Below are positions 1,291 through 45,616 of a stretch of DNA of 50,124 nt, piece by piece; within the stretch, counting starts at the first letter, position 1; each line of letters opens with the position of its first letter. Position numbers and translations under genes: made by a program. Below the pieces are notes generated by a model, which did not search any database, was not told the DNA's origin, and worked only from the letters and a program-made list of their open reading frames with translations. Source of the DNA: an uncultured Spirochaetia bacterium (lineage in GTDB: Bacteria > Spirochaetota > Brachyspiria > Brachyspirales > Brachyspiraceae); NCBI GenBank assembly GCA_947040945.1, contig CAMRCO010000004.1, forward strand, positions 1-50,124. The letters are read 5' to 3'.

Positions 1291-1310
1291 AAAAAAATAT
1301 AATATCCTAT

Positions 1311-1330
1311 TTTAGTTTAGTTTAGTTTTA
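1311..1330. repeat. Short TTTAG tandem repeat between sulfatase and maturase genes
   Basis: Three perfect TTTAG units followed by a partial one fill half of the 40-bp gap between the second sulfatase and the maturase gene. It reads CTAAA on the coding strand. It could slip in replication and alter the spacing between the two genes, but nothing in the sequence shows that it does. Confidence 0.5.
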
Positions 1331-3622: not shown

Positions 3623-3653
3623 TTAATAATCTCCATTTAATTAAAGCGTATTC

Positions 3654-6032
3654 TTAAAAATCAAGTAAATCATCTTTAAGACTTATTTTCACACGGCTAA
3701 CTTTTCCATTAAACTCAAAGTCATCAGTATAATCAGAGCTAACCTTAGAGCCTACATCACTACCCATACTAAAGTAATCATAAGAGAGCATTGTAGATAA
3801 CGTTTTTAAACTCTCTTTGCTTGCTACAATTTCTCCATCAACTTTTAAGTTAATATCACCGCTAGACATTGTTTTTTTATTGTACTCTATTTCTATATCA
3901 TGCTTTCCTTTTGTTATGTCTTTAGTAGAAATAACTTTTTGTTTTTCTCCCAAATAATTATATTCATATACTAATTTATTATCTTTAATATATAAAACAT
4001 ATCCACCGTCAATACCGCCATTGGCAAATATTACGCCACTAGGATTTAGAGGTACTTCTATTTCTACATATACATTATGAGATACCACTGCTATATTTGG
4101 AACAACAAGAGAGAAAAAATGTCCTTCATCTTTAGTGTAAATATATTCTTTTTTACTCAAAGGTGATTCAGGGCTTCTATACCAAATAGTTCCAACACCC
4201 GCATAACCTATATCCTCTGGCACAAAAGATAAAAATTTAAGTATTTTAATATATTCGCTTGCCTCTTCTGTTGGAGAAGCACCATTTTCTATGCTATTAA
4301 AAACATCTATTGCAACTTGTCCATAACGTTCAATTATAATTTTTTTGTCTACACCTTGAACTATATCCATGAATAAATTTTCAGAATTATTAAACTCACG
4401 TCTTTCTTTAGTGTTATACTCATTAACCATTTTTTGAAGTATATCAGACATATTTTTAGCTAAATTATTAACTTGAGTAGGATCATTTGCTATATCATAA
4501 AGTTCCCATTCTTGACTATATGGGTTTGTAACTATCATATACCCACTTCCATCAGCATACATTCTATCTAGTAACATCATTAATGCTATTTTTTTACGTG
4601 AGTTTAGCATAGGCTCTTCAGACTCAAAACTTTCTTTAAAAGATATTCCTTGCATAGGCTCTTGTTTAATTCCATTAACAGTTTCTAAATGTTCAACATT
4701 TATAACATCGAGTATGGTTGGACTTATATCAAAAACAGCAACCATCTCATTAACCAAACGCCCTGGATTTTTAATACCATTTGCCCATGACGCAATGAAA
4801 GCTGTTTTGACACCCCCATAATGAGCTTTTGTTTTATAATAACGGAAAGGAGTATTTGAAGTCATCGCCCAACCAATATTATATTGAGTACCATAAAGTT
4901 TATTTCCAAAGTTTTCCATAAGTTCATACTGAGTATCTGTGTCATGAACAAAAAGATTTTCATTAGCATGCGCCATTAAACTTCCTGTTGCCCCACCATT
5001 ATAATTAGCTCCATTATCTGAAACAAATATAAATATTGTATTGTCATACTCATCACGTTCTTTAAGTTCCGCAATAAACTTTCCAATTTCTTTGTCTGTG
5101 TACTCTAAAAATCCTGCATAAGTTTCCATGTGACGTGCAGCTACTGCTTTTTCTTTTTCACTAAGCGTATTCCAAGCTGACACAGATTTATCACGTGGAG
5201 GCACTTTTGTACCTTCAGGCATTATCCCAAGTTCTACTTGACGGGCAAGAATCATTTCACGCTCAATATCCCAACCATGATCAAATTTACCTTTATATGC
5301 GTCTATATATTCTTTAGCCACATTAAAAGGTCCGTGTAAAGCCCCGAGTCCAATATATGCAAAAAATGGTTCATCTTTATCTACTTCATCTATGTATTCT
5401 AAAGTTTTATCAAATATATCTTTTGTTAAGTGATAATCTTCTTTTGATGTATCAGGTATTACATATTCATTTCCCTCAATCATACCACCCGGTTCAAATT
5501 GATTAACTTGACTTGCTATAAACGAATAATTTTCATCAAACCCCTTACCAGAAGGCCAATGATATTTATCCCCATTTGGTCTAAACTCTTCATAAGGACC
5601 TAAATGCCATTTCCCTGTAGCTATGGTTGTATAGCCATTTTCTTTTAATGTATGTGTAACAGGTGCATATTCAGGATATATTCTACCATGAATATTTGGC
5701 ACTCTTTCACCTAAATCAATATCACTTACAACTCCCATTCCTATTTTGTTAGCCTCGCTACCTGTCAGTAAAGATGCCCTACTAGGAGAGCTCAAAGGGC
5801 TTGTAAAGTAATTTATATACTGCAAGCCATTTTTTGCTAGCTCATCTATATTTGGAGTATTTATAGATGACCCATATACACCCAAGTCTCCATACCCCAT
5901 ATCATCTATTACTATATAAACTATATTAGGTTTTTCTACCGCATAATTAACCTCTTCTTCTCCGCTACAACCTGCTAGCATTGAAAGAGAAGTACCTATA
6001 AAAAGTGAAGCTTTTAAATTATTACTTGTCAT
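3654..6032 (-). CDS. Lipoprotein sulfatase, Ser-type (arylsulfatase family)
   Basis: A 792-residue sulfatase and the first gene of the sulfatase-sulfatase-maturase run. The lipobox LAGC places the lipidated Cys at residue 22. The metal-site motif VIDDMGYGDLG covers about residues 41-51. The activation motif S-S-P-S-R at 81-85 predicts Ser81 as the formylglycine precursor. GKWHLGP and SDNGAN contribute the conserved Lys/His and Asp/Asn. A C-terminal domain from about residue 620 (GGYVLYIKDNKLVYEYN and following) looks like a LamG-type beta-sandwich and matches the end of the neighbouring sulfatase. The ATG is preceded by GGAGAG. The two enzymes clearly share ancestry but are well diverged, which suggests different sulfate-ester preferences rather than a recent duplication. 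Confidence 0.93.
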   Translation of the reverse strand: MTSNNLKASLFIGTSLSMLAGCSGEEEVNYAVEKPNIVYIVIDDMGYGDLGVYGSSINTPNIDELAKNGLQYINYFTSPLSSPSRASLLTGSEANKIGMGVVSDIDLGERVPNIHGRIYPEYAPVTHTLKENGYTTIATGKWHLGPYEEFRPNGDKYHWPSGKGFDENYSFIASQVNQFEPGGMIEGNEYVIPDTSKEDYHLTKDIFDKTLEYIDEVDKDEPFFAYIGLGALHGPFNVAKEYIDAYKGKFDHGWDIEREMILARQVELGIMPEGTKVPPRDKSVSAWNTLSEKEKAVAARHMETYAGFLEYTDKEIGKFIAELKERDEYDNTIFIFVSDNGANYNGGATGSLMAHANENLFVHDTDTQYELMENFGNKLYGTQYNIGWAMTSNTPFRYYKTKAHYGGVKTAFIASWANGIKNPGRLVNEMVAVFDISPTILDVINVEHLETVNGIKQEPMQGISFKESFESEEPMLNSRKKIALMMLLDRMYADGSGYMIVTNPYSQEWELYDIANDPTQVNNLAKNMSDILQKMVNEYNTKERREFNNSENLFMDIVQGVDKKIIIERYGQVAIDVFNSIENGASPTEEASEYIKILKFLSFVPEDIGYAGVGTIWYRSPESPLSKKEYIYTKDEGHFFSLVVPNIAVVSHNVYVEIEVPLNPSGVIFANGGIDGGYVLYIKDNKLVYEYNYLGEKQKVISTKDITKGKHDIEIEYNKKTMSSGDINLKVDGEIVASKESLKTLSTMLSYDYFSMGSDVGSKVSSDYTDDFEFNGKVSRVKISLKDDLLDF

Positions 6033-17353: not shown

Positions 17354-20300
17354 TTATTGATTATTCGAGCTTTTTCGTTTCCAACCATTAATGGTCGCCT
17401 CAACATCCTCACGAGAATAATTATTATGAGACACAATTTGGTCAACTGTCCAACCTGTTTTATATAAATCGACTATAAGTTTTTCTTTTTTAGAATCAGC
17501 CCCTTTATATTGTACTTTTTTATTAGTAGGTTTAACCAAAGGTATACCATCTTCAAAAAGATATTGATCAACATTTTTGAGTAATGCCTCTAATGAATTA
17601 ATAGCATAATCAGCACGCTCTAAATTATTTTCAACTTTACTATCTTGGTCTTGATAATAAGTTTTCATTTTCATCAAAGTATCACGCTGATTTCCTATCT
17701 CGTCTATTAAAACCTCAAGTTGCTCAATACGGCTTATAAGTGTTTGTATTTTCTTATCATTCTTATGAAGCTTAGCTGCATCTTGCTCTACAGTTTGTAA
17801 CTTATCCATTAATATATTTCTGTTATCCTCAACATCATTTAATTTATGCTGTATATCATTAATTTTTGAGAATATATCAAATGTTTGTTTTTCAATAGTT
17901 TCAACATTATCCAATGTCGCTACTATTACTGTTTCTTTATCCTTTAATGAAGAAAGCTTATCTTCAATATCATTTGACAGATCAAGTACTGCTTTAACTC
18001 CTAATTCAGTTGTCTCTATCTTAGAATTATATTCAGCTATTGAAGTAAACTTTTCTTTCATATCATCTGAAAGTTCAATAAGCATTTTAACTTTTTCTTC
18101 AGTGTCCTCTATTTCTGCTTTTTCATTTTTAATATTATTAGCATATTCTAGTATCTCTGTATGCATATCTTTAAGAGAGCTAAACTCAGCCACTGTTTGG
18201 GTAATGCTTTCTTTACCTTCATTAGTCTCACTTAATAGAACTCGTAAATTTTCTATTTCGTTTTTAATATTCTCAGTCATAGCATCAGCATTATCAAACA
18301 CTTTCATGTCTGACAAATATGAATCAACTTTATAAGCTATAGAGTCTATTTTCTCTTTTAAAGAATCATACTCTGACTCAATATTATTTTTATTATCCTT
18401 AGATAATGTATTAATAGATTCTATAACACCTGTAACTTGTTCATTTATGTCCTCTGTCTTTTTAGCTAAATCATTCATCAAGATATTTGTTTTATCTTTA
18501 ATATCAATATCTAAAGCTTGTAATCTATACTCTGAGTTTTGACCATATTCCTCAAGTGTTTTTTCTAGGTTCGACACAATATTAGTCATATCAGATAATT
18601 TTTCTCCAGTCTCAATTAAGTCATTCTTGCTATCTTTTAATATTGACTCTTTAGCCTCATGTATATATTCCTTAGCATCTTTCATTAAAATTGATAATGT
18701 CTGCTCTAGGTTAGAGTTTAATCTTTCTATATACTTTTCATATTTTTCTTCAGATTTACTTTCTATACCAGCAACACCTTCATCAATAATATCATTCGCT
18801 TCAGTTATTCTATTATTGATAGCCTCAGTTATGGACTCACGTAATGCTTCTAATGAATCAGACATACCTTCATAATGAGCTTTTAGTGCATCAAACTGTG
18901 ATGACTTTTCATCTAACACAGCATCAACTCTAGAACTTATTTCATCAATAGACTTAGTAGATTTAAGATTAGTATCTTCTATAATATCATCAACTTTCTT
19001 TAAGCGCTCATTAAATGATTCTAAGAACTTTGAATTAATATCCTTCAAGTTTTCCTTAAACTCTTTACCACCTGTCTCAACTTTAGTTTTAGCCTCATCC
19101 ATTTGCTCATATATATTATCAATTTTTTCTTTTATAATATTTTCAAGTTTTTGAATAGAAGGTTCAAGCTCATTTTCTACAGTCTTTATTCTAGCTTCAA
19201 TTTTTTCAACATCTTTTTGATTCTCTTCAATTCCATCAATAAACATATCTTTCAATGTCAATGCCTGTTGTAAATCTGCTATAGTGTCTTCTACCGATGA
19301 AACTATATTATTTTTAGTCATATTAATTTCATTTGTAAAAGATTCTATTTTATTTTTATAATCATCTTCCACATTAGAGAAAATATTATGTAAACTGTTT
19401 AATTTCTCATTATGTTTTTCAGAATAAGAGCGTTCAGAGTTCTCATAAAATACTTTAAGATTAGCTAAGCTATCATTTTGTAATGTCTCCATTTTATCTT
19501 TTGAGTTTTCAGTTTCAATATTTAGTGAATTGTTAAACTCATCTAATAAAATATTTTGATAATCAGATAAACGAACTTCAATATCTTTCATATTTTTAGA
19601 TACTTTATCTTCTGTTAGAGTAAACATATCATCAATTTTTTGAACAAGTAAATTTTCAAGTTTTTCTACAGCAGCCTTAGCATCAGTAAAATCCTTAAAT
19701 GAATCAAGCTCTTCTCTCAAGAAATCATTAACTAATTTTTCAATATTAGGTTTTAAGTCCACAATTTCACGACTAACCTCATCATTAAATGTATTAAGCA
19801 AGTCATCAATTTTATTTCTTGACTCCTCTAAATGCAGTTGATGTGCTGAAGTAAGTTTAGATTCTATACTTAATAAATACCTTTCAGTTTCCTCTACTCT
19901 TGAAGCCAATTCATTTTCTTTTTCATTAATTCGTTCTTGAGCTATATCAGTTGCCACAACAATTTTATCTGTAAGTTTATCAATTTGTAATTTAATATCA
20001 CCTTCACTATTGTCTATAAACTTAACTAAATCTTGTCTTTCTTTTCTGATATCATCTATCTCAGTTTTTATTCCTTTCTGTATCTCTATAAGATTTTTAA
20101 TTTCAGATTCTTGATTTACAATATCTTCCTTAATAGTCTCAATAAAAGTAGTAACATTCTCACGTGCCTCATCAACTCGACTTACAATGTCTTTTATTTT
20201 TTCATTCTCTATCTTATCAAGTTCTTCACGAGCATTATCCATCTTCTCATGTAATGATTCTAAACTAGAGTTCGCTTGCTCCCGTAAACTTAAAACTTCC

Positions 20301-23300
20301 TCTGTTACAGCATCTCTATAAAAATCTTTTATTTGAGAAGCATCAGAAAAAGAATCTTCAAAATGTTCTACTCGTTTCTCAATTCTGTCCTTAAATAAAT
20401 TATTAGACTCTTCAAATAAAGATACAACGTCTCCTTTAAAAGTCTCGGCAAGGGATGCCAAGTCAGGTGTATTATTTAGAATCTCTTTTTTAAGATTATC
20501 AAAAATATTATTTACATCTGTTTCTTGTTCTTCAAAGAAATTTACTATTTCATCTTTCTTAAAATAATTTAAGCCAAGATCATTTTTAAGTGCTTCAATG
20601 CTGTCAAGTAATTTCTCTCGCTCGTCTTCAACCAAACTTAAACTATTACTTTGGTCTTTAGCTAAACTTAAAATAGATTCCTTAAAGTCTTCCATACCAA
20701 CTAAAATATCTTCTTTCTCACTTTGTATCATAGAATAAACGTCTTCACTAGATACTTTATCATCATTTATGCTGTGACGTAAAACTTCAATATCATTCAA
20801 TATTTTTTCTTTATCATTTTCAAGCTCTTCTGTTTTCTCGTTCACAAACTCTACTCGCATAGAAATTGTGTCCTTGAAAGACGTTAATTCATTTTCAATA
20901 CTATCTCTTTTCTCATCAACACTATCTCTAAAACCTGACATAATAGAATCAATCTCTTCTTGAAGTTCCTCTTTTATAGCAGGCATCTTTGATAAAATAT
21001 CTTCTCTAAAATTATCAAACTGCACCTGTACTTTATCTTCACCCTCAATTAAAAACTTGCTTATGTCTTCTAAATTAGGCATATCTTTAAGTAAAGCGTC
21101 TTTTAAAGAATTAAACTTTTCACTTAAACCATTTTGCTCTTCAGAAAATAATAAAGAAATATTATCTACACTTGAAAATGTTTTTGCAATATCCTCTTTA
21201 AATAATTCTAAGTTAGATAAAATATCTGCTTTCTCTTTATTTATTAAATCAACTAAGTCTTCGCTAGAAGGTTTGTTCATATTCTCTAATATAGAATTAA
21301 TTTTCTCTTCAAATAAAACTTTTTCATTAGCGACTTTTTCTGAAACAATATCGTTCACAGAACTGTCATTACTTGATATTTTTTCATTAAAAGAATTAAC
21401 TTTTTCCATCAAACTATCAAAACCTTCTGTCCAATTCTTTTTCTCTTCATTCAAAATATCTTTATATCTGCTTTCAATATTATTAATAAGCAAAGAAGTT
21501 TTGTCATCAAACCCTAAAGTTTCCGCTCTAATTATTGACTTGAAATTATCTAAGTCTTCAATAAACTTATTTTTCTCATCTTCAAATATTGATTCAAACT
21601 TTTTACTATCTTCTAAATCCTCTTTCATCTTATCTAAGTCTTCATACATAGATTCTTTTTCTGTTTCAAATAAAGTAGCAATGTCACTCATGCTTGGAAT
21701 AGATTCGACTATCTCTTCTTTTAAACTAACAAGTTTTTTATCTATTTCATTTTCTTTTGAGTCAAAGCTATCTTTCACACTTTCAAGTACATCAGACCTA
21801 AGTACATCTAAAAGATCCATTAAATGATTTTGCTCATCTGTAAGTAAACCAGTTTTACTTTCTAATTTCTCTATACTTGAAATAAAGTTTTCTCGTAGCT
21901 CATTAATTTTTTCAAATATATCATTCTCATCAATATTATCATTATTCGCTTCAATATAATTCTTAAGTGAATTAATTTCAGTTTCAAAAACGCTACTACT
22001 TTCAGAGGCTATTTTATTAATATCCATTTCTATAGATTTAATTTTCTCTTCAAGTGAAGCTTCATAATCTAAAATCAAAGAGTCCATAGACGCTTTGTAA
22101 TTAGAAATATCTGAATCACTTCTAACCAATGCCTCATTAACTTTATCGAATCGCTCATCAATATTTTTCGCAAGTGAATCTTGTTTCTCATCAACTGCTA
22201 AAATCCTATCAACAATATCCTCAATACCATCATCATTTTTATCACTTAAAACGCTAACAGATTCCTCAACAGCAACTATTTTTTCATCAACATAATTATG
22301 TAACCCAGAGTCAAGTTCTGAAATCTCTAGTTTTATTTTATCAAGCATCGATTCTAAAACTTCTGGATTATCGCTTTCTAAGTTGCTAGCAAAATTATTA
22401 AACTCAGTTTCCATAGCATTAAGTCGTTCAACTACTTCTTTAATTTTTTTCGACTGCTCTTCCCCAATAGAATTGTTCGCTATAAACGCTTCTTGGTTTG
22501 CTAAACTTTCTTTTATTTCCTCTATTACAGAATCAGTTTCTACTGACCTATGATGTTCAAGCTCTGAAATCTCATCTTTATATCTCGCAATAGCACCATC
22601 GACTAAACCTCGTAGCTCTGTTATATTACTTGAAACATCATCTTCTAATTTTGAAAGTATCTCACTAGTTTTATTATTAGCATCCTCTTTTACAGATTCT
22701 ATAAGATTTTTAATTTCAGATTCTTGATTTACAATATCTTCCTTAATAGTCTCAATAAAAGTAGTAACATTCTCACGTGCCTCATCAACTCGACTTACAA
22801 TGTCTTTTATTTTTTCATTCTCTATCTTATCAAGTTCTTCACGAGCATTATCCATCTTCTCATGTAATGATTCTAAACTAGAGTTCGCTTGCTCCCGTAA
22901 ACTTAAAACTTCCTCTGTTACAGCATCTCTATAAAAATCTTTTATTTGAGAAGCATCAGAAAAAGAATCTTCAAAATGTTCTACTCGTTTCTCAATTCTG
23001 TCCTTAAATAAATTATTAGACTCTTCAAATAAAGATACAACGTCTCCTTTAAAAGTCTCGGCAAGGGATGCCAAGTCAGGTGTATTATTTAGAATCTCTT
23101 TTTTAAGATTATCAAAAATATTATTTACATCTGTTTCTTGTTCTTCAAAGAAATTTACTATTTCATCTTTCTTAAAATAATTTAAGCCAAGATCATTTTT
23201 AAGTGCTTCAATGCTGTCAAGTAATTTCTCTCGCTCGTCTTCAACCAAACTTAAACTATTACTTTGGTCTTTAGCTAAACTTAAAATAGATTCCTTAAAG

Positions 23301-26300
23301 TCTTCCATACCAACTAAAATATCTTCTTTCTCACTTTGTATCATAGAATAAACGTCTTCACTAGATACTTTATCATCATTTATGCTGTGACGTAAAACTT
23401 CAATATCATTCAATATTTTTTCTTTATCATTTTCAAGCTCTTCTGTTTTCTCGTTCACAAACTCTACTCGCATAGAAATTGTGTCCTTGAAAGACGTTAA
23501 TTCATTTTCAATACTATCTCTTTTCTCATCAACACTATCTCTAAAACCTGACATAATAGAATCAATCTCTTCTTGAAGTTCCTCTTTTATAGCAGGCATC
23601 TTTGATAAAATATCTTCTCTAAAATTATCAAACTGCACCTGTACTTTATCTTCACCCTCAATTAAAAACTTGCTTATGTCTTCTAAATTAGGCATATCTT
23701 TAAGTAAAGCGTCTTTTAAAGAATTAAACTTTTCACTTAAACCATTTTGCTCTTCAGAAAATAATAAAGAAATATTATCTACACTTGAAAATGTTTTTGC
23801 AATATCCTCTTTAAATAATTCTAAGTTAGATAAAATATCTGCTTTCTCTTTATTTATTAAATCAACTAAGTCTTCGCTAGAAGGTTTGTTCATATTCTCT
23901 AATATAGAATTAATTTTCTCTTCAAATAAAACTTTTTCATTAGCGACTTTTTCTGAAACAATATCGTTCACAGAACTGTCATTACTTGATATTTTTTCAT
24001 TAAAAGAATTAACTTTTTCCATCAAACTATCAAAACCTTCTGTCCAATTCTTTTTCTCTTCATTCAAAATATCTTTATATCTGCTTTCAATATTATTAAT
24101 AAGCAAAGAAGTTTTGTCATCAAACCCTAAAGTTTCCGCTCTAATTATTGACTTGAAATTATCTAAGTCTTCAATAAACTTATTTTTCTCATCTTCAAAT
24201 ATTGATTCAAACTTTTTACTATCTTCTAAATCCTCTTTCATCTTATCTAAGTCTTCATACATAGATTCTTTTTCTGTTTCAAATAAAGTAGCAATGTCAC
24301 TCATGCTTGGAATAGATTCGACTATCTCTTCTTTTAAACTAACAAGTTTTTTATCTATTTCATTTTCTTTTGAGTCAAAGCTATCTTTCACACTTTCAAG
24401 TACATCAGACCTAAGTACATCTAAAAGATCCATTAAATGATTTTGCTCATCTGTAAGTAAACCAGTTTTACTTTCTAATTTCTCTATACTTGAAATAAAG
24501 TTTTCTCGTAGCTCATTAATTTTTTCAAATATATCATTCTCATCAATATTATCATTATTCGCTTCAATATAATTCTTAAGTGAATTAATTTCAGTTTCAA
24601 AAACGCTACTACTTTCAGAGGCTATTTTATTAATATCCATTTCTATAGATTTAATTTTCTCTTCAAGTGAAGCTTCATAATCTAAAATCAAAGAGTCCAT
24701 AGACGCTTTGTAATTAGAAATATCTGAATCACTTCTAACCAATGCCTCATTAACTTTATCGAATCGCTCATCAATATTTTTCGCAAGTGAATCTTGTTTC
24801 TCATCAACTGCTAAAATCCTATCAACAATATCCTCAATACCATCATCATTTTTATCACTTAAAACGCTAACAGATTCCTCAACAGCAACTATTTTTTCAT
24901 CAACATAATTATGTAACCCAGAGTCAAGTTCTGAAATCTCTAGTTTTATTTTATCAAGCATCGATTCTAAAACTTCTGGATTATCGCTTTCTAAGTTGCT
25001 AGCAAAATTATTAAACTCAGTTTCCATAGCATTAAGTCGTTCAACTACTTCTTTAATTTTTTTCGACTGCTCTTCCCCAATAGAATTGTTCGCTATAAAC
25101 GCTTCTTGGTTTGCTAAACTTTCTTTTATTTCCTCTATTACAGAATCAGTTTCTACTGACCTATGATGTTCAAGCTCTGAAATCTCATCTTTATATCTCG
25201 CAATAGCACCATCGACTAAACCTCGTAGCTCTGTTATATTATTGAAAACATTGTCTTCTACTCGCATAAACATATCGCTAGCTTTAATGCTTATATCTTC
25301 TTTTACAGATTCTATTTCAGAATCAAGAGAATCAACTTTATTTTGAACCTCATCCGCTTTCTTAGATAATGATTCATTCATAGCTTCAAATTTTTCAAAA
25401 TCATTCTGTAGATTAATTGTATTATTATTTATAGTTTCAAATTGAGTGTCTATTAATTCTTTAATGTTTGACGCATCATTATTTAAGCCCTCAATTCGTT
25501 TACCCATAGAATCTAACTTTTCTTTATAATCATCAGATAAATTATTAGAGTCAGCTTTAAGAGAAGCAAATTGATCCATTAAATTTTTAGACGTATTTTC
25601 AAACATAGAATGATAACTAGAATTAAGATCATTTATATGTTCTTTTTTCTCTTTCAATATATCTTCTAATGAATGCTCTAATATTAAATATTTTTCTTCT
25701 ACACTTGAAAGTAATTCTTTTTCTTTCTTTTCTACAACATCATAAACATTCTGCATATTCTTTTCAAAAACTTCTTTTCCACTTTCAGCTCTATGAGAAA
25801 CATCCTCAAGTTCACCTTTTAATATATTCATCTCATCACGCTTTAAGTTAAGCATATTATCAAAATCTAATGTAGCATTTTTTAATTCAGTACCAAGTAA
25901 ATCTAATATAGATTTTTTATTAGCATCAGATTCATTTTTTGTATCTTCTAAAAGACCCTGCATTTCATTTTGTAAGTCAGTAAAGTTTTTAGATAATATA
26001 TTTTGAACATCATCACATCTTTTTTCTGTAAGCTCAATTCTGCCTATAACAGAATCCATATCCTCTACTATCTCTTTTACTTGAGTATCTTTATAGTTAT
26101 CAAACATATTGTCAAGTTCAGATTTTATTTGCCCAACATAATTAAGCCCATAACTTTCAATCTCATTTTTAAATGTATCGATATTATTATATGCTTCCAT
26201 TGTTTTAGAGGCAAACTCAGAATTAATATCATGAACATCTTTTTCAAGCTCATAAGTTATAGTTTCAAGTAAGTCTATTTTTTTCTCAAGCTTTTCTTTT

Positions 26301-28108
26301 ATATTACCTTCTGTATCTGCTAATAATTTATCTATTTCATCATTAGTGCTATTAAACTTATTTTCAATATCACTCATTTTCTCTTCAGCAAGAAGTATAT
26401 CTTTAGTAGTTTTTTCTATATATAAATCTATATCTTCGCAAACAGTAGCACGCATAGAATTAAATTCATCTTCAAGCTTAGCCAAATGCCCATTAGAATG
26501 CTCTTCTAAATCTTTATATACATACTCTTTTTCTAATTTAATTTCATCTAATATTTTTTCTTTTTTATTCTCTAAAATAGAAAGTATTTCATTAGTTTGG
26601 AAATTAGTTTCGCCTATTTTTTCTTTAAGTAAATCACTTTCATTTTCAATATCTTTATTCAAGTCGTTTATACTATTAATAATTGAAGTTCTAGTTTTAT
26701 CTAAAGCATTATCAAGATCATCTTGAGCTTTAATAACTGCATCGTCTCTTAAAACATTTATCTCAACAATAATATCGTCAAATCTAGCATTTGCCTTGCT
26801 TAAAGTATCCCTACTCATATCATCAATTTTATCTGTAAGCTCATTTAGCTCTTTAGTTTTTTGATTATATATTGTTACAACACCTGTACTTTCATTTTCA
26901 AGTACATCTTTTATATGATCTGAAAACACAACTATTTCTTTTGATACCCTATCATTTATGTCAGTTTTAAGTTCATTGAAAGTAGCTTCAATTTCTGTTG
27001 CTTTTGCGATATAGTCTTCATCCAGTTTATGTGATCTTTCTTTCATAGAATCTAAATCTTTTTCAAGTATAGATGCTTTCTCATCTATAGAATCTAAGAA
27101 CTCATCACGCTCTAGTCCAAGTTTCTCAACCTCTTCTTTAAGTGAAGCAAGCAATGTGTCTTTAGTTTTCTGCATTTCAGTCTTAAACTCTAATGTGCTT
27201 GTTTCTGTTATATTATTTAGTCTATCTCTTATTGATGAACGTAGGTCATAAAGTTCCTCTTCTAATGTAATTCCAGACTTATTTAAGTCCTCATACCTAT
27301 TCTCTATTCCAACAGATTTTAAGTTAACCTCATCAGCAAACTGATCATACCTAACAAATAATTCTTCTCTACTTTTTTCAAATAATCCAGAAAGCTGTTC
27401 TATATTATTACGAGCAGCTCTTTCAGCAAGGGAAGTAAGCTGATTCGTAAACATTTCTTCTTTTTTTGAAACATGATTCTTAAAGTCTTCAGTAAGCTCT
27501 GAAATTTTTTCTTTTTCTTGTTCTGCTATCGAACTATAATGAGCATCACGAGCAAGCAAATTACTTGTAAGCAAATCAAATCTCTTATAAAGTTCTCCCT
27601 CAAACTCATCAAATTTATCTCTATATGACTTAACAAGATTGTCCTGTATTAATCCAACACTTCCTTCAAGTTCTAAAACCTTTGTTTTTACGTCAGATAT
27701 ACGTTTGTATGTTTTATCAATTGTATGACGTTCTTTAAGAATAGTATCTACTCTATTAAGTATTTCAAGATAAGCGTCTTCTAAAACTTCAACTTGCCCT
27801 TGATATTGGGAAATTGCCGCCTCATAATCTTTATATGATTCTATTCTAGGTGTTAATTTTGCTAAATCCTCTTCTATTGCTTTACTTATAATACCTGCTC
27901 TTTTTACAGCTATTTCTAAATCTATAGCATTATCTTTAACTTCAGATATTTTTTCATCAACAATACCAGCAAGAGCTTGTTGCTTTTCTACAAACAAGTC
28001 TTCAAAGTTATTGCCTAAGCCTCTTTCTTTTTTCTCAAATACTTTAGATAAAGTAACGACTATAATAGGTATAACTATAATCAATATAATGTTCAACAAA
28101 GGTGTCAT
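17354..28108 (-). CDS. Giant membrane-anchored coiled-coil protein (SpiroCoCo type) with internal 848-residue duplication
   Basis: 3584 residues. I place the start at ATG 28108: GGAG lies 8 bp upstream, and a perfect promoter (28140-28168) would start transcription near 28133, downstream of the in-frame ATG at 28138. Architecture: an N-terminal membrane helix (about residues 3-22, LLNIILIIVIPIIVVTL); roughly 3500 residues of almost unbroken, acidic, heptad-like coiled coil rich in Glu, Lys, Asp, Ser, Leu and Ile; and a C-terminal helix-turn-helix-like tail (VDLYKTGWTVDQIVSHNNYSREDVEATINGWKR). Residues about 957-1804 and 1828-2675 are identical. Each block contains about eight degenerate 30-33-residue modules. 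The layout matches the SpiroCoCo coiled-coil family of spirochaetes. The cellular role is unknown; a cytoplasmic filament or envelope-tethered scaffold is my inference. Confidence 0.9.
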   Translation of the reverse strand: MTPLLNIILIIVIPIIVVTLSKVFEKKERGLGNNFEDLFVEKQQALAGIVDEKISEVKDNAIDLEIAVKRAGIISKAIEEDLAKLTPRIESYKDYEAAISQYQGQVEVLEDAYLEILNRVDTILKERHTIDKTYKRISDVKTKVLELEGSVGLIQDNLVKSYRDKFDEFEGELYKRFDLLTSNLLARDAHYSSIAEQEKEKISELTEDFKNHVSKKEEMFTNQLTSLAERAARNNIEQLSGLFEKSREELFVRYDQFADEVNLKSVGIENRYEDLNKSGITLEEELYDLRSSIRDRLNNITETSTLEFKTEMQKTKDTLLASLKEEVEKLGLERDEFLDSIDEKASILEKDLDSMKERSHKLDEDYIAKATEIEATFNELKTDINDRVSKEIVVFSDHIKDVLENESTGVVTIYNQKTKELNELTDKIDDMSRDTLSKANARFDDIIVEINVLRDDAVIKAQDDLDNALDKTRTSIINSINDLNKDIENESDLLKEKIGETNFQTNEILSILENKKEKILDEIKLEKEYVYKDLEEHSNGHLAKLEDEFNSMRATVCEDIDLYIEKTTKDILLAEEKMSDIENKFNSTNDEIDKLLADTEGNIKEKLEKKIDLLETITYELEKDVHDINSEFASKTMEAYNNIDTFKNEIESYGLNYVGQIKSELDNMFDNYKDTQVKEIVEDMDSVIGRIELTEKRCDDVQNILSKNFTDLQNEMQGLLEDTKNESDANKKSILDLLGTELKNATLDFDNMLNLKRDEMNILKGELEDVSHRAESGKEVFEKNMQNVYDVVEKKEKELLSSVEEKYLILEHSLEDILKEKKEHINDLNSSYHSMFENTSKNLMDQFASLKADSNNLSDDYKEKLDSMGKRIEGLNNDASNIKELIDTQFETINNNTINLQNDFEKFEAMNESLSKKADEVQNKVDSLDSEIESVKEDISIKASDMFMRVEDNVFNNITELRGLVDGAIARYKDEISELEHHRSVETDSVIEEIKESLANQEAFIANNSIGEEQSKKIKEVVERLNAMETEFNNFASNLESDNPEVLESMLDKIKLEISELDSGLHNYVDEKIVAVEESVSVLSDKNDDGIEDIVDRILAVDEKQDSLAKNIDERFDKVNEALVRSDSDISNYKASMDSLILDYEASLEEKIKSIEMDINKIASESSSVFETEINSLKNYIEANNDNIDENDIFEKINELRENFISSIEKLESKTGLLTDEQNHLMDLLDVLRSDVLESVKDSFDSKENEIDKKLVSLKEEIVESIPSMSDIATLFETEKESMYEDLDKMKEDLEDSKKFESIFEDEKNKFIEDLDNFKSIIRAETLGFDDKTSLLINNIESRYKDILNEEKKNWTEGFDSLMEKVNSFNEKISSNDSSVNDIVSEKVANEKVLFEEKINSILENMNKPSSEDLVDLINKEKADILSNLELFKEDIAKTFSSVDNISLLFSEEQNGLSEKFNSLKDALLKDMPNLEDISKFLIEGEDKVQVQFDNFREDILSKMPAIKEELQEEIDSIMSGFRDSVDEKRDSIENELTSFKDTISMRVEFVNEKTEELENDKEKILNDIEVLRHSINDDKVSSEDVYSMIQSEKEDILVGMEDFKESILSLAKDQSNSLSLVEDEREKLLDSIEALKNDLGLNYFKKDEIVNFFEEQETDVNNIFDNLKKEILNNTPDLASLAETFKGDVVSLFEESNNLFKDRIEKRVEHFEDSFSDASQIKDFYRDAVTEEVLSLREQANSSLESLHEKMDNAREELDKIENEKIKDIVSRVDEARENVTTFIETIKEDIVNQESEIKNLIESVKEDANNKTSEILSKLEDDVSSNITELRGLVDGAIARYKDEISELEHHRSVETDSVIEEIKESLANQEAFIANNSIGEEQSKKIKEVVERLNAMETEFNNFASNLESDNPEVLESMLDKIKLEISELDSGLHNYVDEKIVAVEESVSVLSDKNDDGIEDIVDRILAVDEKQDSLAKNIDERFDKVNEALVRSDSDISNYKASMDSLILDYEASLEEKIKSIEMDINKIASESSSVFETEINSLKNYIEANNDNIDENDIFEKINELRENFISSIEKLESKTGLLTDEQNHLMDLLDVLRSDVLESVKDSFDSKENEIDKKLVSLKEEIVESIPSMSDIATLFETEKESMYEDLDKMKEDLEDSKKFESIFEDEKNKFIEDLDNFKSIIRAETLGFDDKTSLLINNIESRYKDILNEEKKNWTEGFDSLMEKVNSFNEKISSNDSSVNDIVSEKVANEKVLFEEKINSILENMNKPSSEDLVDLINKEKADILSNLELFKEDIAKTFSSVDNISLLFSEEQNGLSEKFNSLKDALLKDMPNLEDISKFLIEGEDKVQVQFDNFREDILSKMPAIKEELQEEIDSIMSGFRDSVDEKRDSIENELTSFKDTISMRVEFVNEKTEELENDKEKILNDIEVLRHSINDDKVSSEDVYSMIQSEKEDILVGMEDFKESILSLAKDQSNSLSLVEDEREKLLDSIEALKNDLGLNYFKKDEIVNFFEEQETDVNNIFDNLKKEILNNTPDLASLAETFKGDVVSLFEESNNLFKDRIEKRVEHFEDSFSDASQIKDFYRDAVTEEVLSLREQANSSLESLHEKMDNAREELDKIENEKIKDIVSRVDEARENVTTFIETIKEDIVNQESEIKNLIEIQKGIKTEIDDIRKERQDLVKFIDNSEGDIKLQIDKLTDKIVVATDIAQERINEKENELASRVEETERYLLSIESKLTSAHQLHLEESRNKIDDLLNTFNDEVSREIVDLKPNIEKLVNDFLREELDSFKDFTDAKAAVEKLENLLVQKIDDMFTLTEDKVSKNMKDIEVRLSDYQNILLDEFNNSLNIETENSKDKMETLQNDSLANLKVFYENSERSYSEKHNEKLNSLHNIFSNVEDDYKNKIESFTNEINMTKNNIVSSVEDTIADLQQALTLKDMFIDGIEENQKDVEKIEARIKTVENELEPSIQKLENIIKEKIDNIYEQMDEAKTKVETGGKEFKENLKDINSKFLESFNERLKKVDDIIEDTNLKSTKSIDEISSRVDAVLDEKSSQFDALKAHYEGMSDSLEALRESITEAINNRITEANDIIDEGVAGIESKSEEKYEKYIERLNSNLEQTLSILMKDAKEYIHEAKESILKDSKNDLIETGEKLSDMTNIVSNLEKTLEEYGQNSEYRLQALDIDIKDKTNILMNDLAKKTEDINEQVTGVIESINTLSKDNKNNIESEYDSLKEKIDSIAYKVDSYLSDMKVFDNADAMTENIKNEIENLRVLLSETNEGKESITQTVAEFSSLKDMHTEILEYANNIKNEKAEIEDTEEKVKMLIELSDDMKEKFTSIAEYNSKIETTELGVKAVLDLSNDIEDKLSSLKDKETVIVATLDNVETIEKQTFDIFSKINDIQHKLNDVEDNRNILMDKLQTVEQDAAKLHKNDKKIQTLISRIEQLEVLIDEIGNQRDTLMKMKTYYQDQDSKVENNLERADYAINSLEALLKNVDQYLFEDGIPLVKPTNKKVQYKGADSKKEKLIVDLYKTGWTVDQIVSHNNYSREDVEATINGWKRKSSNNQ
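20085..22628 (-). repeat. Long in-frame direct repeat, second (C-terminal) copy
   Basis: A 2544-bp direct repeat, offset by exactly 2613 bp (871 codons) from the first copy. The encoded 848 residues are the same in both copies, and every nucleotide stretch I compared, including third codon positions, is identical. Identity stops sharply at 20084 (c against t) and at 22629 (c against t). Confidence 0.93.
22698..25241 (-). repeat. Long in-frame direct repeat, first (N-terminal) copy
   Basis: Partner of the copy at 20085-22628. The 69 bp between the copies (22629-22697) encode a 23-residue spacer that is related to, but clearly diverged from, the 69 bp flanking this copy at 25242-25310. Both flanks share TTTACAGATTCTAT and encode ESVKED near their start. 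Confidence 0.93.
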
Positions 28109-28139
28109 AGAAAAACTCCAAAAAATACTAGTTATCATA

Positions 28140-28262: not shown

Positions 28263-31200
28263 CTATTCTTCTATCGATACTGTATCTTTTTTATCATGAT
28301 GCTTAAATGTAGTTCCTATACTTTCTTTGTCTTTTTCATCATAACTTTTTAGCTTAAATTTATTTCTTATAGAAGAATAAATAATAGGAATTATTATAAG
28401 AGTAAATATAGTAGATACTGAAAGACCTCCCAAAACAGATAATGCAACAGGTTTGAAAAGCTCACTACCCTCACCAGAACTTAAAGCCATAGGAAAAAGT
28501 CCAAATATAGTAGTAAGTGTAGTCATCATAACAGGACGCATACGTCTAGTGCCTGCTTCTATGGCAGCCTTATCAGGAGAAAACTTCTCCCCATGCTTAC
28601 CTAAAATAAGTTGATTCATATAATCAATAAGCACAATACCATTATTTATAACTATACCAACAAGCATAATAATACCAACCCCACCATAAACACTTAAAGT
28701 TTCTCCTCCAACAAATAGACCAAATAAAGCACCAACAACACCAAACGGTAAAGAAAGTGCTATAACAAATGGACCTACCAATGATTCAAACTGGCTTGCC
28801 ATAATGGCATATACTAAAACGATAGCAAGTATTAAAGCTTGTAAAAGTTGCCCAAATGCTTCTTCCATATCCTCATTTGATCCTGAATAATTTAGAATAA
28901 CTTCAGGTGGTATATAAACATCCTTTGCTATAGCTCCTTTTATTTTATCCATTGCTTTATCAAGAGACTCTCCAAAAATAGACACAGTAATCGTAAGTAG
29001 TCTTTTATTATCTTTTCTTTCTATAACACTAGGTCCATAATCTTTTGAAACTTCAGCTATAGATGCTACAGGAACCATCCCATAAGGAGTAGTTATCATC
29101 ATACTACCCACATTATTTATGCTTTGTCTGTCCTCTTCATTAAGCCTCACAGTAACATCTATATCAGTACTTGCTGACCCTGCAGGTGTTATTCTAGTAG
29201 CAGTAGCACCTGCGAAAGCCGTTTCAATAGCCTTTGCTACTGTGTATGTACTTAGTCCCATTTTTGATGCTAAGTCTCTATTAATCTTTATTTTAACTTC
29301 AGGATTTGAATCTTCCCGAGTAAATCTAATATCTCTTAAAGAATCAACATTTTCTAAAGACGCTATAATATTATTTCCAATTTCCTCTGCTCTATCAAGG
29401 TCATCTCCAATAATTTCAATATTAACATCCCCTGAATCACCACCACCACTTCCGGGTCCACCACTAGTAATTTCACGAATGCTTATACGTCCAGGATACC
29501 CTTTAAGGCGTTGTCTTACCTCTTCAATATAATAGTCAATAGGCTTTCTAGTTTTCAGGTCAGTAAGCTTAACTCTTATACTAGCTCTGTGATCAGTGCC
29601 TCTATGCTTTACAGTAGCCTGTATTCTTTCGAGTTTATCCCCAAGAACATTTTTAATATCACTTTCCATACGAAGCACAAAAGAATCAGTTTGTTCAGCA
29701 CGTGTACCTGCTGGAAGTCTTAAAGATATTTGAAACTCTCCTTGGTCAGTTGTAGGAAAGCCTTCCTTCCCTATAAATAATAAACCCACAATAAGAGAAA
29801 CAATAACAACAGCAAAAGTAGAAATAATTGCTTTCTTTTTATTTCTTATAGACTTTTTTAATATTTCAATATAAAAAACATCTATTTTAGTCAAAATTTT
29901 ATTTGTAAACTCATCAAAAGATTTAATATGTTTATTATGCTCAGTCGATATCATTCTAGCACTTAGTGTTGGTACTATTGTAAGCGCTGTTACTAAAGAA
30001 GTTAAAAGCGATATTGTTACAGTAAGACATAAATCTCTAAACATTTCACCTGTCATACCCTCTACAAATATGAACGGAAGAAAAACAGCAATTGTAGTAA
30101 AAGTAGACGCTGAAATCGCAAGAGCAACATCAGCCGTTCCTTGAATAGCTGCCGTATATTTACCTTTTCCTATTTGCCTATAATAAAAAATATTTTCAAG
30201 TACTACTATAGAGTTATCAACCATCATACCTATACCCAATGTAAGACCTGATAATGAAATAACATTAAGAGTAATATCCATAAAATACATTAAAGTAAAT
30301 GTTGCTATAATTGATATAGGAATTGAAAAAGTTATAATACCAACTGTTCTAAAGTTTGATAAATAAATCATTAATATAACAACAGCAAATAAACCACCTT
30401 GCCAAGCAGCACTCACAACACTATCAATAGATGACCTAATACTATCAGCTGTGTTATATATTATCTCATATTCCACACCTTCTGGGAGAGTTAAATCCTT
30501 AAGCTCCTTTTCTATAGCATCAGCCACCTGAACTGTATTTTTACCTGATTCTTTATTAATCTCAATAGAAACAGAAGGGCTTCCATTTACACGAACAATA
30601 CTAGTGTCGTCATCATAACCTTCATAAACAGTTGCAACATCTCTAAGTCTTACAGGCACTCTATCGCTTATTGAAACAACAACATTACGAATATCATCCA
30701 AATTTTCAAACTCGCCTGTAGTCCTTAAAATATATTTATAAACCCCTTCATAAGCATTTCCACCAGCAATATTTTGGTTTTCCATAGACAAAGTACTCAC
30801 TATATCATTAATAGAAAGCCCATAAGCCTGAAGCCTGTTTAGATCAATATCTACCATAATTTCAGTTTTAAGTCCACCACCAATTTCTGCTTGAGCAACA
30901 CCAGGGACTTGCTCTATTTTTCCAAGAACTGTATTATCTGCTAAATCATATAATGCGGCTAAGTTGTCGCTTCCATAAAAAGCTAGCCCCATAACTGGTA
31001 TATCATCAGTTGAAAACTTAAATATCATAGGAGATTCAGCTTCATCAGGAAGAATACTTCTTATTCTATCTATTGCCTCTCTAACATCACTAGTTGCTGC
31101 ATCTAAATCAGCACCCCAAGCAAACTCTATAATAACCCTAGAAACTCCTTCTTCAGAACTAGATGTAATAGTATCAACATCACTTACAGTAGCAATAGCA

Positions 31201-31409
31201 GTCTCTACCATTCTTGTAACAGATTTCTCAACCTCTTCAGGACCTGCACCCTCATACTCTGTACGTATCATAATAATAGGTATTTCCATGCTAGGCAGTA
31301 AGTCTACAGCAAGCCTACTTAAACTTATAATTCCAAGTATCATAATGGCTACAACTGCCATAAAAACGGTCACAGGTTTTTTTACAGATAAATCTATTAA
31401 ATTATTCAT
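28263..31409 (-). CDS. RND-family efflux permease (AcrB/HAE1-like)
   Basis: 1048 residues, the usual length for an RND pump. Helix 1 is at 13-30 (VFMAVVAIMILGIISLSRLAV), followed by the first periplasmic porter domain (LPSMEIPIIMIRTEYEGAGPEEVE), helices 2-6 around 335-490, a second porter domain to about 850, and helices 8-12. TM4 has GMMVDNSIVVLEN, keeping one of the two proton-relay Asp residues of AcrB (the second is Asn). TM10 has VINNGIVLIDYMN where AcrB has its Lys. These variants are common in this sub-branch. It exports hydrophobic or amphiphilic compounds by proton antiport together with the two upstream-encoded partners. Substrate unknown; the sequence is drug-type rather than metal-type. 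Confidence 0.93.
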   Translation of the reverse strand: MNNLIDLSVKKPVTVFMAVVAIMILGIISLSRLAVDLLPSMEIPIIMIRTEYEGAGPEEVEKSVTRMVETAIATVSDVDTITSSSEEGVSRVIIEFAWGADLDAATSDVREAIDRIRSILPDEAESPMIFKFSTDDIPVMGLAFYGSDNLAALYDLADNTVLGKIEQVPGVAQAEIGGGLKTEIMVDIDLNRLQAYGLSINDIVSTLSMENQNIAGGNAYEGVYKYILRTTGEFENLDDIRNVVVSISDRVPVRLRDVATVYEGYDDDTSIVRVNGSPSVSIEINKESGKNTVQVADAIEKELKDLTLPEGVEYEIIYNTADSIRSSIDSVVSAAWQGGLFAVVILMIYLSNFRTVGIITFSIPISIIATFTLMYFMDITLNVISLSGLTLGIGMMVDNSIVVLENIFYYRQIGKGKYTAAIQGTADVALAISASTFTTIAVFLPFIFVEGMTGEMFRDLCLTVTISLLTSLVTALTIVPTLSARMISTEHNKHIKSFDEFTNKILTKIDVFYIEILKKSIRNKKKAIISTFAVVIVSLIVGLLFIGKEGFPTTDQGEFQISLRLPAGTRAEQTDSFVLRMESDIKNVLGDKLERIQATVKHRGTDHRASIRVKLTDLKTRKPIDYYIEEVRQRLKGYPGRISIREITSGGPGSGGGDSGDVNIEIIGDDLDRAEEIGNNIIASLENVDSLRDIRFTREDSNPEVKIKINRDLASKMGLSTYTVAKAIETAFAGATATRITPAGSASTDIDVTVRLNEEDRQSINNVGSMMITTPYGMVPVASIAEVSKDYGPSVIERKDNKRLLTITVSIFGESLDKAMDKIKGAIAKDVYIPPEVILNYSGSNEDMEEAFGQLLQALILAIVLVYAIMASQFESLVGPFVIALSLPFGVVGALFGLFVGGETLSVYGGVGIIMLVGIVINNGIVLIDYMNQLILGKHGEKFSPDKAAIEAGTRRMRPVMMTTLTTIFGLFPMALSSGEGSELFKPVALSVLGGLSVSTIFTLIIIPIIYSSIRNKFKLKSYDEKDKESIGTTFKHHDKKDTVSIEE

Positions 31410-31434
31410 TACTTATTAAATCCTTTTAAACAAC

Positions 31435-32628
31435 TTAATTTGCTTCAGGCTCTACATTATTATTAGTATCTACAGCTTTAGTACCCACAGCTTTAGTATC
31501 TACAGCTTTAGTATCTACAGCTTTAGTATCCACAGCTTTAGTATCCACAGCTTTAGTATCCACAGCTTTAGTATCCACATTATTAGTGTTCATACTATTG
31601 GTATCCATATTATTAGTTTGAGTCCCAATATACCCAGCAATAGAGCTATCATTTCTAATTGGGTTTACTAAAGAACCCTCATTAAGAAACTCACGACCAA
31701 ACATAACAATCTCTTCTCCATCTTCTAAACCACCACTTAAAGCAAGTTTATCATCAGATGCAAATAGGACGTTTATCTCTCTTTGATACGCTCTATACAA
31801 TGCTTGATTCCCCTTGCTCTCATTCTTATCTTTATCCTTCTCTACAATACCAGAATCAGCAACACTAGGAGTCTCTTCTCTTATTACATAAAGATAATTT
31901 TTACCATCATCCCCAATAAAAACTGAGCTATTAGGTACAACTATAACATTTTTAGCTTCATTTATGAGTATCGAAACATCTGAAAACATACCGGGAAGAA
32001 GCACACTATTTCTATTATCTATTGCCCCTTTAACCATTAAAGTTCTTGTATTAGTACTTACAACAAAATCTCTTTTAGTAATAATAGCTTCAATTTCTTT
32101 ATCTGGAGAAGAAGGCACTCTTATAAAAAGTTTTTGACCTAAGTTTATCGATTCAACATAACGTTCAGGAACAGCAATTTGCACCTCAAGACGAGTTATG
32201 TCGGCAACATTAGCTATTGGAGTTCCCGCACTTACAGATGAACCTATAGGTAAATATGTTGTTGTAACATAGCCAGAAATTGGGCTACGAGCATGAGCAT
32301 AAGTATAATTAGCACCTACAACAAATCTATCAACAAGAGCAATAGTATCACCATATCTTACAAATGAGCCTTCATATTTTTTTATATCAACTATTTTACC
32401 CGGAACATCAGATGATATATCAACTTCTTTAACTGGTTTAATTTCTGCAGAAAGGTCTAAAAAAGCCTCAATATCACGTCTTAAAGGGATACCTGACAAA
32501 ACACTTATAGAAGTTTCTCCACGATCTTTAACATCTTTCTTACAAGAAGTCAGAATAAAAAAAGAAAGTATCAAAACAAAAAGTATTTTTTTATTAAAAA
32601 TTCCATATTTATAAAATTTAGTAGGCAT
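31435..32628 (-). CDS. RND efflux periplasmic adaptor lipoprotein (membrane fusion protein)
   Basis: 397 residues. Lipobox ILTSC (Cys29) anchors it in the inner membrane. The lipoyl/barrel-sandwich halves (VPGKIVDIKKYEGSFVRYGD and ARSPISGYVTTTYLPIGSSV) follow each other with almost no alpha-hairpin between them, so the hairpin is very short. Beta-barrel and membrane-proximal domains follow (LEVQIAVPERYVESI; VIVVPNSSVFIGDDG). The last 55 residues are an unusual Asn/Thr/Asp tail with seven 15-bp repeats. Its ATG overlaps the stop codon of the upstream channel gene by one base, and AGGAG lies 7 bp upstream. It connects the permease and the outer-membrane channel. Confidence 0.92.
   Translation of the reverse strand: MPTKFYKYGIFNKKILFVLILSFFILTSCKKDVKDRGETSISVLSGIPLRRDIEAFLDLSAEIKPVKEVDISSDVPGKIVDIKKYEGSFVRYGDTIALVDRFVVGANYTYAHARSPISGYVTTTYLPIGSSVSAGTPIANVADITRLEVQIAVPERYVESINLGQKLFIRVPSSPDKEIEAIITKRDFVVSTNTRTLMVKGAIDNRNSVLLPGMFSDVSILINEAKNVIVVPNSSVFIGDDGKNYLYVIREETPSVADSGIVEKDKDKNESKGNQALYRAYQREINVLFASDDKLALSGGLEDGEEIVMFGREFLNEGSLVNPIRNDSSIAGYIGTQTNNMDTNSMNTNNVDTKAVDTKAVDTKAVDTKAVDTKAVDTKAVGTKAVDTNNNVEPEAN
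31472..31576 (-). repeat. Seven tandem 15-bp repeats in the adaptor gene
   Basis: Seven consecutive 15-mers of the form ACAGCTTTAGTATCY (one variant reads GTACCC) encode AVDTK-type pentapeptides at the extreme C-terminus of the adaptor. The unit is a multiple of three, so slippage would change length without breaking the frame. Confidence 0.95.
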
Positions 32629-33992
32629 TAATTATCTCCTCTTCTATTAAGTAGCTTCATTATCTGTAGAGTACTTGAGTAGTACTCGAAAATTGATTGT
32701 ATAAATGAAAGTTGAGCATTAAGATATACTATTTCAGCATCATTAACTTCAAGTAACGATATAGTTCCACCTTGATATTGCCTCACTGCCATATTGTAAG
32801 CATGCTCTGCTGTAGTAACATTTTCTGACTGTGATAAAAGCATTAACGACTTCGACCTTGATGTTGCTATTAAATCACGACTAAAAACCTCTATAGTGTC
32901 TCTAAGCTCATCATACGTAACTTCTAGCTTCTGAATATTTATCTTGACCTCTTCAGCTTGTTTTGCAGGAGCTGAAAATGGAAATAAGCTATCAAGTGAA
33001 TATGACAGACTAACTCCTACATTAAAGTCAGGCTCCCATTCTCTTTCTAAAGCAAAATTAACCCCATTTTGAATTACTTTATCATTAAACCCGTATGAAC
33101 CACCTAAAGAAGCACTAATATTAGGCCAAAAATAACTTTGAGCTATCTTTTTATTATATTCAAGTATTTCAATACTACTTTCCATATTTTTTAATTCTAT
33201 ATTATTTTGCATTATAATCCCAAGCATTTCATCATACTCTATATCAGGGACTACTATATTTGTAGCATTGAAAAGGTCTCCAACAATTTCAACCTCATCA
33301 ACATTATTTGTAACACCTATAGACCTTAAAAAAGATAATTTTTGACTTTGATAATTATTACTTAATGTAGATAAATTAGGTTTTGTATTTTCAAACTGAA
33401 CTTTAGCATTTAAATATTCATATTCTGAAACCAGTCCATTTCTATATTGAATATATGTAAAACTCATCCTATTACTTAAAGCTTTTTGCGAACTTAAATA
33501 TACTAAATAATTTTCACGAATAACAAATGTATTATAAAATGATATTTGAGTATTAAGTGATAAATCTTTTAAAGCTTCGTCATATTGTTCTTCAAGCATT
33601 TGTAAATTTACTTTCTGTCTTTCATTAGCATTCCAATTTCTTAGACCTGTAAAAATAACTTTTGATAACTTAGCATCAAAAAGATATTGGTCAGAGCTTG
33701 ACTTAAGCCCACCTGTAAGTTCTCTACTTTTAATAAATGCGACTGAACCACCAACTGTAAGCGAGGGGACAACTAAATCAGCAAATGTTTTATCTTTTTG
33801 CACTTTTGCTATTTCTAAATCATAAAATGACTGCTTAAGTATTCTATTATTTTCTAAAGCAAGATTTAAGGATTCTTCAATTGTTATTTGTATTTTTTCA
33901 TTTACAACAGGATTTGTATTTTCTATACTACCAGCATCTTGACCATAAATAAGTACGCTAATAAGTAAAAATATACTTAGCACTTTCTTCAT
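32628..33992 (-). CDS. TolC-family outer-membrane efflux channel
   Basis: 454 residues with an N-terminal signal peptide (hydrophobic core VLSIFLLISVLIYG). It shows the TolC repeat pattern: two long helical hairpin halves, each starting with a motif like ITIEESLNLALENNRILKQ and ending in an amphipathic helix (LLEVNDAEIVYLNAQLSFIQSI near residue 420), plus beta segments for the trimeric outer-membrane barrel (LGGSYGFN; NVGVSLSYSLDSLFPF). First gene of the three-gene efflux operon. RBS GAGAGGT precedes the ATG. Together with the adaptor and permease it forms a tripartite pump spanning both membranes, which is direct evidence for a diderm envelope. Confidence 0.92.
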   Translation of the reverse strand: MKKVLSIFLLISVLIYGQDAGSIENTNPVVNEKIQITIEESLNLALENNRILKQSFYDLEIAKVQKDKTFADLVVPSLTVGGSVAFIKSRELTGGLKSSSDQYLFDAKLSKVIFTGLRNWNANERQKVNLQMLEEQYDEALKDLSLNTQISFYNTFVIRENYLVYLSSQKALSNRMSFTYIQYRNGLVSEYEYLNAKVQFENTKPNLSTLSNNYQSQKLSFLRSIGVTNNVDEVEIVGDLFNATNIVVPDIEYDEMLGIIMQNNIELKNMESSIEILEYNKKIAQSYFWPNISASLGGSYGFNDKVIQNGVNFALEREWEPDFNVGVSLSYSLDSLFPFSAPAKQAEEVKINIQKLEVTYDELRDTIEVFSRDLIATSRSKSLMLLSQSENVTTAEHAYNMAVRQYQGGTISLLEVNDAEIVYLNAQLSFIQSIFEYYSSTLQIMKLLNRRGDN

Positions 33993-45195: not shown

Positions 45196-45229
45196 TTTGG
45201 TATTCGATTATTTTAAGGAGAAGTAAATT

Positions 45230-45616
45230 ATGAAAAATATTTTTATTTTGTTTACTATTTTTATGTTGTCTAGCACTATAGTTACAGCACAATCTGCTAG
45301 ATTAACAAAAGTAGGTTACATAGATGTAGATAAAGTTTTTAAGACTATACTAGAAGACGAAGCATTAGAAGAAGCTATACAGGCAATATTTAAAAAAGAA
45401 GCAGAGACTACAGGCGAGAAAGAACGCTCTGGTGCTAAAGAAATTCAAAAAGAAATTAAAAGCCGTATGGCTAGATCTATACTTGTGATAGTAAGGCGTG
45501 AAGGATATACTCTCATCATAGAAAGAACTGAGACTACTATACTTTATGCTGATAAATACTTTGATATAACAACTCAAGTTATAGCACTTGTTAGAGAATC
45601 TATTTTAAGAGGATAA
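45230..45616 (+). CDS. Short Skp/OmpH-family periplasmic chaperone
   Basis: 128 residues. AAGGAG precedes the ATG and a signal peptide ends around VTAQS. Mature-protein landmarks of the OmpH family are VGYIDVDKVFKTI at the start and, near the end, REGYTLIIERTETTILYADKYFDITTQVI. The tentacle helices between them are much shortened (about 45 residues against roughly 80-90 in E. coli Skp). It lies between bamA and lpxD, the classic position of skp, so it should bind unfolded barrel proteins in the periplasm. The cavity of a trimer this short would be small. Confidence 0.85.
   Translation: MKNIFILFTIFMLSSTIVTAQSARLTKVGYIDVDKVFKTILEDEALEEAIQAIFKKEAETTGEKERSGAKEIQKEIKSRMARSILVIVRREGYTLIIERTETTILYADKYFDITTQVIALVRESILRG

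Follow-up and report, generated by a model that had tools for sequence, protein, structure and literature searches.

A SpiroCoCo-family gene in a Brachyspiraceae genome with near-identical 871-codon units suggestive of recombination within an intragenic array

The window, a 50,124-nucleotide stretch of contig CAMRCO010000004.1 from an uncultured Spirochaetia bacterium of the family Brachyspiraceae, carries on its reverse strand a long gene whose product matches NCBIfam models near both ends: SpiroCoCo_N with 116.6 bits (1.2e-33; curated cut-off 75 bits) and SpiroCoCo_C with 171.4 bits (2.5e-50; curated cut-off 125 bits). Both scores lie above the cut-offs and, judged by these matches, the gene is a member of the spirochaete SpiroCoCo family of coiled-coil proteins (NF047514 and NF047515, the N-terminal model being the same as that of the LA_3659 family, NF047516), with which it shares the N- and C-terminal domains. 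Pfam gave weak matches alone for this protein, of the kind typical for helical proteins. A literature search found no mention of SpiroCoCo or LA_3659, and the keyword-bearing passages of Brachyspira genome papers do not discuss the gene. Features of the locus are collected in Table 1.

Table 1. Features of the SpiroCoCo-family gene, in reading direction; coordinates are those of the window
Feature	Coordinates	Strand	Residues	Basis or remark
SpiroCoCo-family gene	17354..28138	-	3594 aa	3594 codons; ATG start at 28138; ORF plus NCBIfam matches at both ends
Predicted single membrane helix	28049..28105	-	12-30	followed by KVFEKKER; hydropathy maximum 2.69 at residue 12
SpiroCoCo_N domain	27428..28087	-	18-237	NCBIfam
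Unit-start motif 1	25124..25339	-	934-1005	HMM built from relatives, E 2.9e-21; unit-1 type
Flank F1, diverged part of first unit start	25242..25310	-		46/69 to S; unit-start HMM match
Repeat block U, copy 1 (N-terminal)	22698..25241	-	~967-1814	2544/2544 identical to copy 2
Unit-start motif 2	22511..22723	-	1806-1876	HMM, E 2.2e-22
Spacer S, 23 codons, diverged part of second unit start	22629..22697	-		46/69 to F1, 23/69 to D; unit-start HMM match
Repeat block U, copy 2 (C-terminal)	20085..22628	-	~1838-2685	2544/2544 identical to copy 1; then junction conserved in relatives
Flank D after copy 2, start of conserved C-terminal region	20016..20084	-		junction aligned in relatives
SpiroCoCo_C domain	17393..18382	-	3253-3582	NCBIfam
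Three-helix, HTH-like C-terminal tip	17363..17494	-	3549-3592	AlphaFold2 single-sequence model, pLDDT 82-91 over helices

Directly upstream of the SpiroCoCo gene and on the same strand (28263-33992) lie genes for an AcrB-type pump (Pfam ACR_tran, 9e-241), an adaptor-like protein and a TolC-like protein. An outer-membrane assembly cluster on the forward strand (38102-45616) consists of a 1484-residue TamB-like protein with no Pfam match, a BamA-like protein (five POTRA domains plus Omp85) and an OmpH/Skp-like protein. On the reverse strand at 55-6032, a gene for a radical-SAM protein resembling sulfatase-maturing enzymes has two sulfatase-like genes as neighbors, one of which was tested with Pfam Sulfatase.

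The SpiroCoCo protein has a long alpha-helical middle; it is poor in glycine (2.0%) and proline (0.5%), with a hydrophobic period of about 3.63 through nearly its full length. The 3.5-residue period of a canonical heptad coiled coil is not what was found (power at 3.5 was 0.1 over the whole rod); the last 250 residues alone come near it, at 3.475. The first-pass annotation had given about 129 nm of helix for each 871-residue unit, a figure that becomes an upper bound given six prolines per unit and a period of 3.63 rather than 3.5. Together with the predicted membrane helix near the N-terminus, these properties suggest an inner-membrane-anchored alpha-helical rod, which by the positive-inside rule would be cytoplasmic. 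The structural model of the C-terminal region contains an 87-residue helix, and the last 45 residues are predicted to form a three-helix bundle with a statistically weak resemblance to HTH domains: the top Foldseek matches are response-regulator and resolvase HTH domains (probability 0.9-0.98 but E of at least 0.2), and a profile match was to the Sleeping Beauty PAI subdomain (E 0.0018). Going by this model, the tip might bind DNA.

Read in the direction of the gene, the order of segments is F1, the first copy of block U, S, the second copy of U, and D. Two apparently identical direct repeats 871 codons apart had been reported here from inspection, and a base-by-base comparison of the assembled sequence agrees: there are no differences, synonymous or other, among 2544 bases, and both blocks share one reading frame, offset by 2613 bp. 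A 15-bp repeat aside, other offsets in the window show no long exact repetition. The further observation that the 69-bp spacer is only distantly like the 69 bp flanking the first copy also holds. S matches F1, beside the N-terminal copy, at 46 of 69 positions and D, beyond the C-terminal copy, at 23; across 3570 other in-frame windows of the gene the background for S is 23.8 +- 4.1 with a maximum of 40, so the likeness to F1 is above chance. Thirteen of the 16 codons that differ between S and F1 differ non-synonymously. That proportion, and the fact that S starts exactly where F1 does, both being unit starts, would fit a plain recent tandem duplication of the 871-codon F1-plus-U segment in which S later diverged under selection and no conversion took place. 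Such a history, however, needs an extreme local rate to put 23 differences into 69 bp and none into the adjoining 2544 bp, unless conversion protects U, and a history with conversion protecting U is the model favored below rather than plain duplication, which we find scarcely credible.

A profile HMM of the region spanning S or F1 and the start of U, iterated on relatives, matches the focal gene twice, 871 residues apart, giving two units as assembled. The likeness of S to F1 reflects shared ancestry, each being the start of one of the homologous units. Of 149 spirochaete genomes searched, 147 have SpiroCoCo_C. Outside the Brachyspiraceae the listed SpiroCoCo ORFs run from about 0.7 to 3.0 thousand residues, and within it up to 9127; in the focal genome and Brachyspira an array of units of 600-870 residues enlarges the middle. 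Among Brachyspiraceae relatives, where the gene is an array of units of about 600-730 residues, the HMM counts 2 to 10 units per gene (leaving out an extra match that several have near the C-terminus), the motif being regularly spaced in Brachyspira: eight in each of five genomes (G017, G009, G008, G012 and G013), ten in G006, six in G018, G019 and G007, and two in G005.

In each full-length relative, the best match to U falls at one place, about 885-895 residues before the C-terminus, with 360-389 bits against about 180-209 bits for every other unit. Copy 2 in the focal gene ends 910 residues before the C-terminus, compared with 884-895 in complete relatives, so a distinct last unit is present. 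The junction from the end of U into D can be aligned in relatives at 36-43% amino acid identity, and because this junction is conserved, copy 2 sits in its native place. By these comparisons the body of both copies is the last unit of the array, which is single-copy in Brachyspira relatives. The first 21 residues of U, by contrast with that body, average 10.4 of 21 identities to first-unit starts versus 4.2 to second-unit starts, a comparison of 21 columns alone among species related to each other; U would then be a mosaic, starting like a first unit and continuing as a last one, which points weakly to exchange between units.

In the draft of the only congener, G001, sequence is missing at precisely the position expected of the first unit: the break runs from the N-domain to residue 149 of U (L047 and L133, on contigs C58 and C77), and a repeat node sought from the two contig ends yielded no link. 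Matches in contig C111 belong to an unrelated outer-membrane paralogue. A peptide-pattern scan of genome contigs returned no relatives with the repeat unit as query and three with the N-terminus.

Brachyspira orthologues, such as that of B. pilosicoli P43/6/78T (taken as genome G021), have the N-domain, the unit-start motif, the last unit and the C-terminus in common with the focal gene, and carry lineage-specific homogenized units, as the focal gene may; they differ in having more units (up to 10) of about 540-735 residues, a single-copy last unit, and most units orthologous by position. Orthologous units show about 80-97% nucleotide identity, falling with species distance. Homogenization is episodic rather than constant, since most Brachyspira units are orthologous in this way and those within one genome are typically 65-75% alike. 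For some units of G021 and G006, and partly in G004, paralogues within the genome are closer than orthologues between species: units 2 and 3 of G021 are 94.0% identical to each other versus 86-88% to their orthologues, units 4-6 of G006 reach 85-90% versus about 75%, and units 3-6 of G004 are 79-86% alike. In the focal genome, identity between units may be imposed by the assembler, and the congener draft lacks the first unit. G021, a genome finished with 454 reads and PCR (PMC3587939), shows sharp-edged blocks of 88-100% identity beside edges at 30-50%. Its SpiroCoCo gene (L042/L043) is split by a frame change into frames of 809 and 4791 codons, which may be real or a 454 homopolymer error.

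Unit number differs as well. The genes of G014 and G024, whose N-domains are about 94% identical, encode 4884 and 5588 residues, a difference of 704 or about one unit, G014 being a 110-contig draft in which loss of a unit by collapse is possible. The first-pass annotation had called the locus length-variable, and this is sustained at the level of species, where unit number ranges from 2 to 10 with one genome compared per species.

How far the two copies of U can be taken at face value depends on the assembly. The focal genome is in 130 contigs, the longest of 62 kb and C130 of 3.3 kb. When 24 contig ends were sampled, seven proved to overlap the end of another contig by about 55 bases, in most cases by 55-56 bases at 100%; these overlaps came from searching ends against the whole genome, an all-against-all comparison of 40 contig ends having found none. 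Because contig ends share exact 55-mers, this is a k=55 de Bruijn short-read assembly. The metaSPAdes default is k=55, and the assembler was presumably metaSPAdes itself. A repeat as long as U is represented once in a k=55 graph and then written out twice, and the identity seen belongs to the assembled sequence. The sole branching in the graph of the window is the U-S loop; 2, 3, 5 or 9 copies all give this graph, and a single copy gives another. U-S-U is therefore present in the sample, with two U or more, unless reads are chimeric. Isolated differences placed every 60 bp, 42 in all (1.65%), would show as simple bubbles only. In metaSPAdes, bulge projection turns differences into a consensus, and strain contigs serve to find the path through repeats (PMC8021871), so that slightly diverged copies can be printed as identical. 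At least two near-identical copies are thus established; an exact count of two and perfect identity are not, because the graph is blind to copy number and the consensus masks differences.

The sequence might nevertheless be literally correct, with exactly two copies identical at every base and the second made or converted very recently. It is the sequence as given, no measurement contradicts it, and the assembler could have printed a true identity. We consider this unlikely: a k=55 graph cannot tell two copies from more, masking of the metaSPAdes type would yield the same printed identity from slightly diverged copies, and perfect identity beside 33% spacer divergence is the expected look of collapsed graded similarity. 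At the other extreme, the organism might have a single U, the second coming from mixed strains or a chimeric loop, loops being a known weak point of short-read drafts such as this one of 130 contigs. The graph, however, needs reads that join the end of U to S and S to the start of U, S is scored as a true unit start, several units are seen in finished genomes, and a loop of this kind turns up in an independent genus, all of which makes a single U very improbable.

That second loop occurs in G002, a draft from another genus of the family. Exactly the last 55 bases of contig C36 occur again 2526 bp upstream in that contig, and exactly the first 55 bases of contig C60 are also present in C36. This gives the graph F1-U-S-U-D, with a collapsed U of 2333 bp and an S of 193 bp, and the assembly left the loop unresolved. 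Over most of some 150 bp on its left, this S resembles D, and over the 60 bp adjoining its right edge it is about 80% like F1. The repeat is not of the focal U's unit type and has special kinship to none of the other units compared, focal U included, so the loop lies in a different array unit. The pattern of a collapsed interior with a diverged junction therefore occurs twice, in different units. Contig-break k-mers in six other drafts (G003, G015, G016, G020, G022 and G011) gave no repeat signature, and the pieces in G004 simply overlap, with one mismatch. Breaks or an N gap often fall inside the SpiroCoCo gene in drafts (G001, G002, G003, G004, G010, G015, G016, G020 and G022), even in those with only 10-20 contigs.

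The explanation we favor, and hold to be probable, is an array of at least two units of 871 codons, homogenized by recombination between units, whose interiors were collapsed by a k=55 assembler and written twice. Homologous recombination between neighbors, presumably gene conversion or unequal exchange, would have spread a last-type unit over another unit or duplicated it, since both copies have the body of a last unit that is single-copy in Brachyspira relatives. Unit interiors would be kept nearly identical, with the unit starts at the edges, F1 and S, escaping and staying diverged. The assembly program would then have merged the near-identical interiors into one path and printed that path twice, which would explain why the printed copies are perfectly identical and number two; the real copies of U may differ slightly. 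Gene conversion, or expansion and contraction of an array, had been proposed from inspection of the repeats. Recombination between units is well supported by the differing unit numbers and homogenized units of relatives, with a weaker sign from the mosaic block, as are the array itself, its change by such exchange and the presence of at least two near-identical copies; perfect identity and a count of two go beyond a k=55 assembly.

Near-identical interiors, diverged edges and whole-unit length changes are common to this array and to intragenic tandem repeats under concerted evolution in general. The focal unit differs in being very long (2.6 kb), its units are few, and the comparison here is between species. 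In Brachyspira and its relatives, one of the largest genes thus changes by whole modules of 2-2.6 kb. In draft genomes this locus can be broken, collapsed or made to look falsely perfect, and the length or identity of a SpiroCoCo gene taken from short-read genomes could mislead users. If unit number also varies within species, a cell-scale rod would here be resized in an unusual manner. A more far-reaching idea, which we regard as a long shot, is that the Brachyspiraceae protein is a membrane-anchored rod with a DNA-binding tip whose length is reset by recombination, via unit number, over about 0.5 to more than 1 micrometre, serving as an evolvable cell-scale tether or ruler from inner membrane to nucleoid.

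On a smaller scale, the gene for the membrane fusion protein of the RND efflux operon (31435-32628, reverse strand) encodes a C-terminus with a 15-bp tandem repeat, (VDTKA)n, which is likely a length-variable tract.
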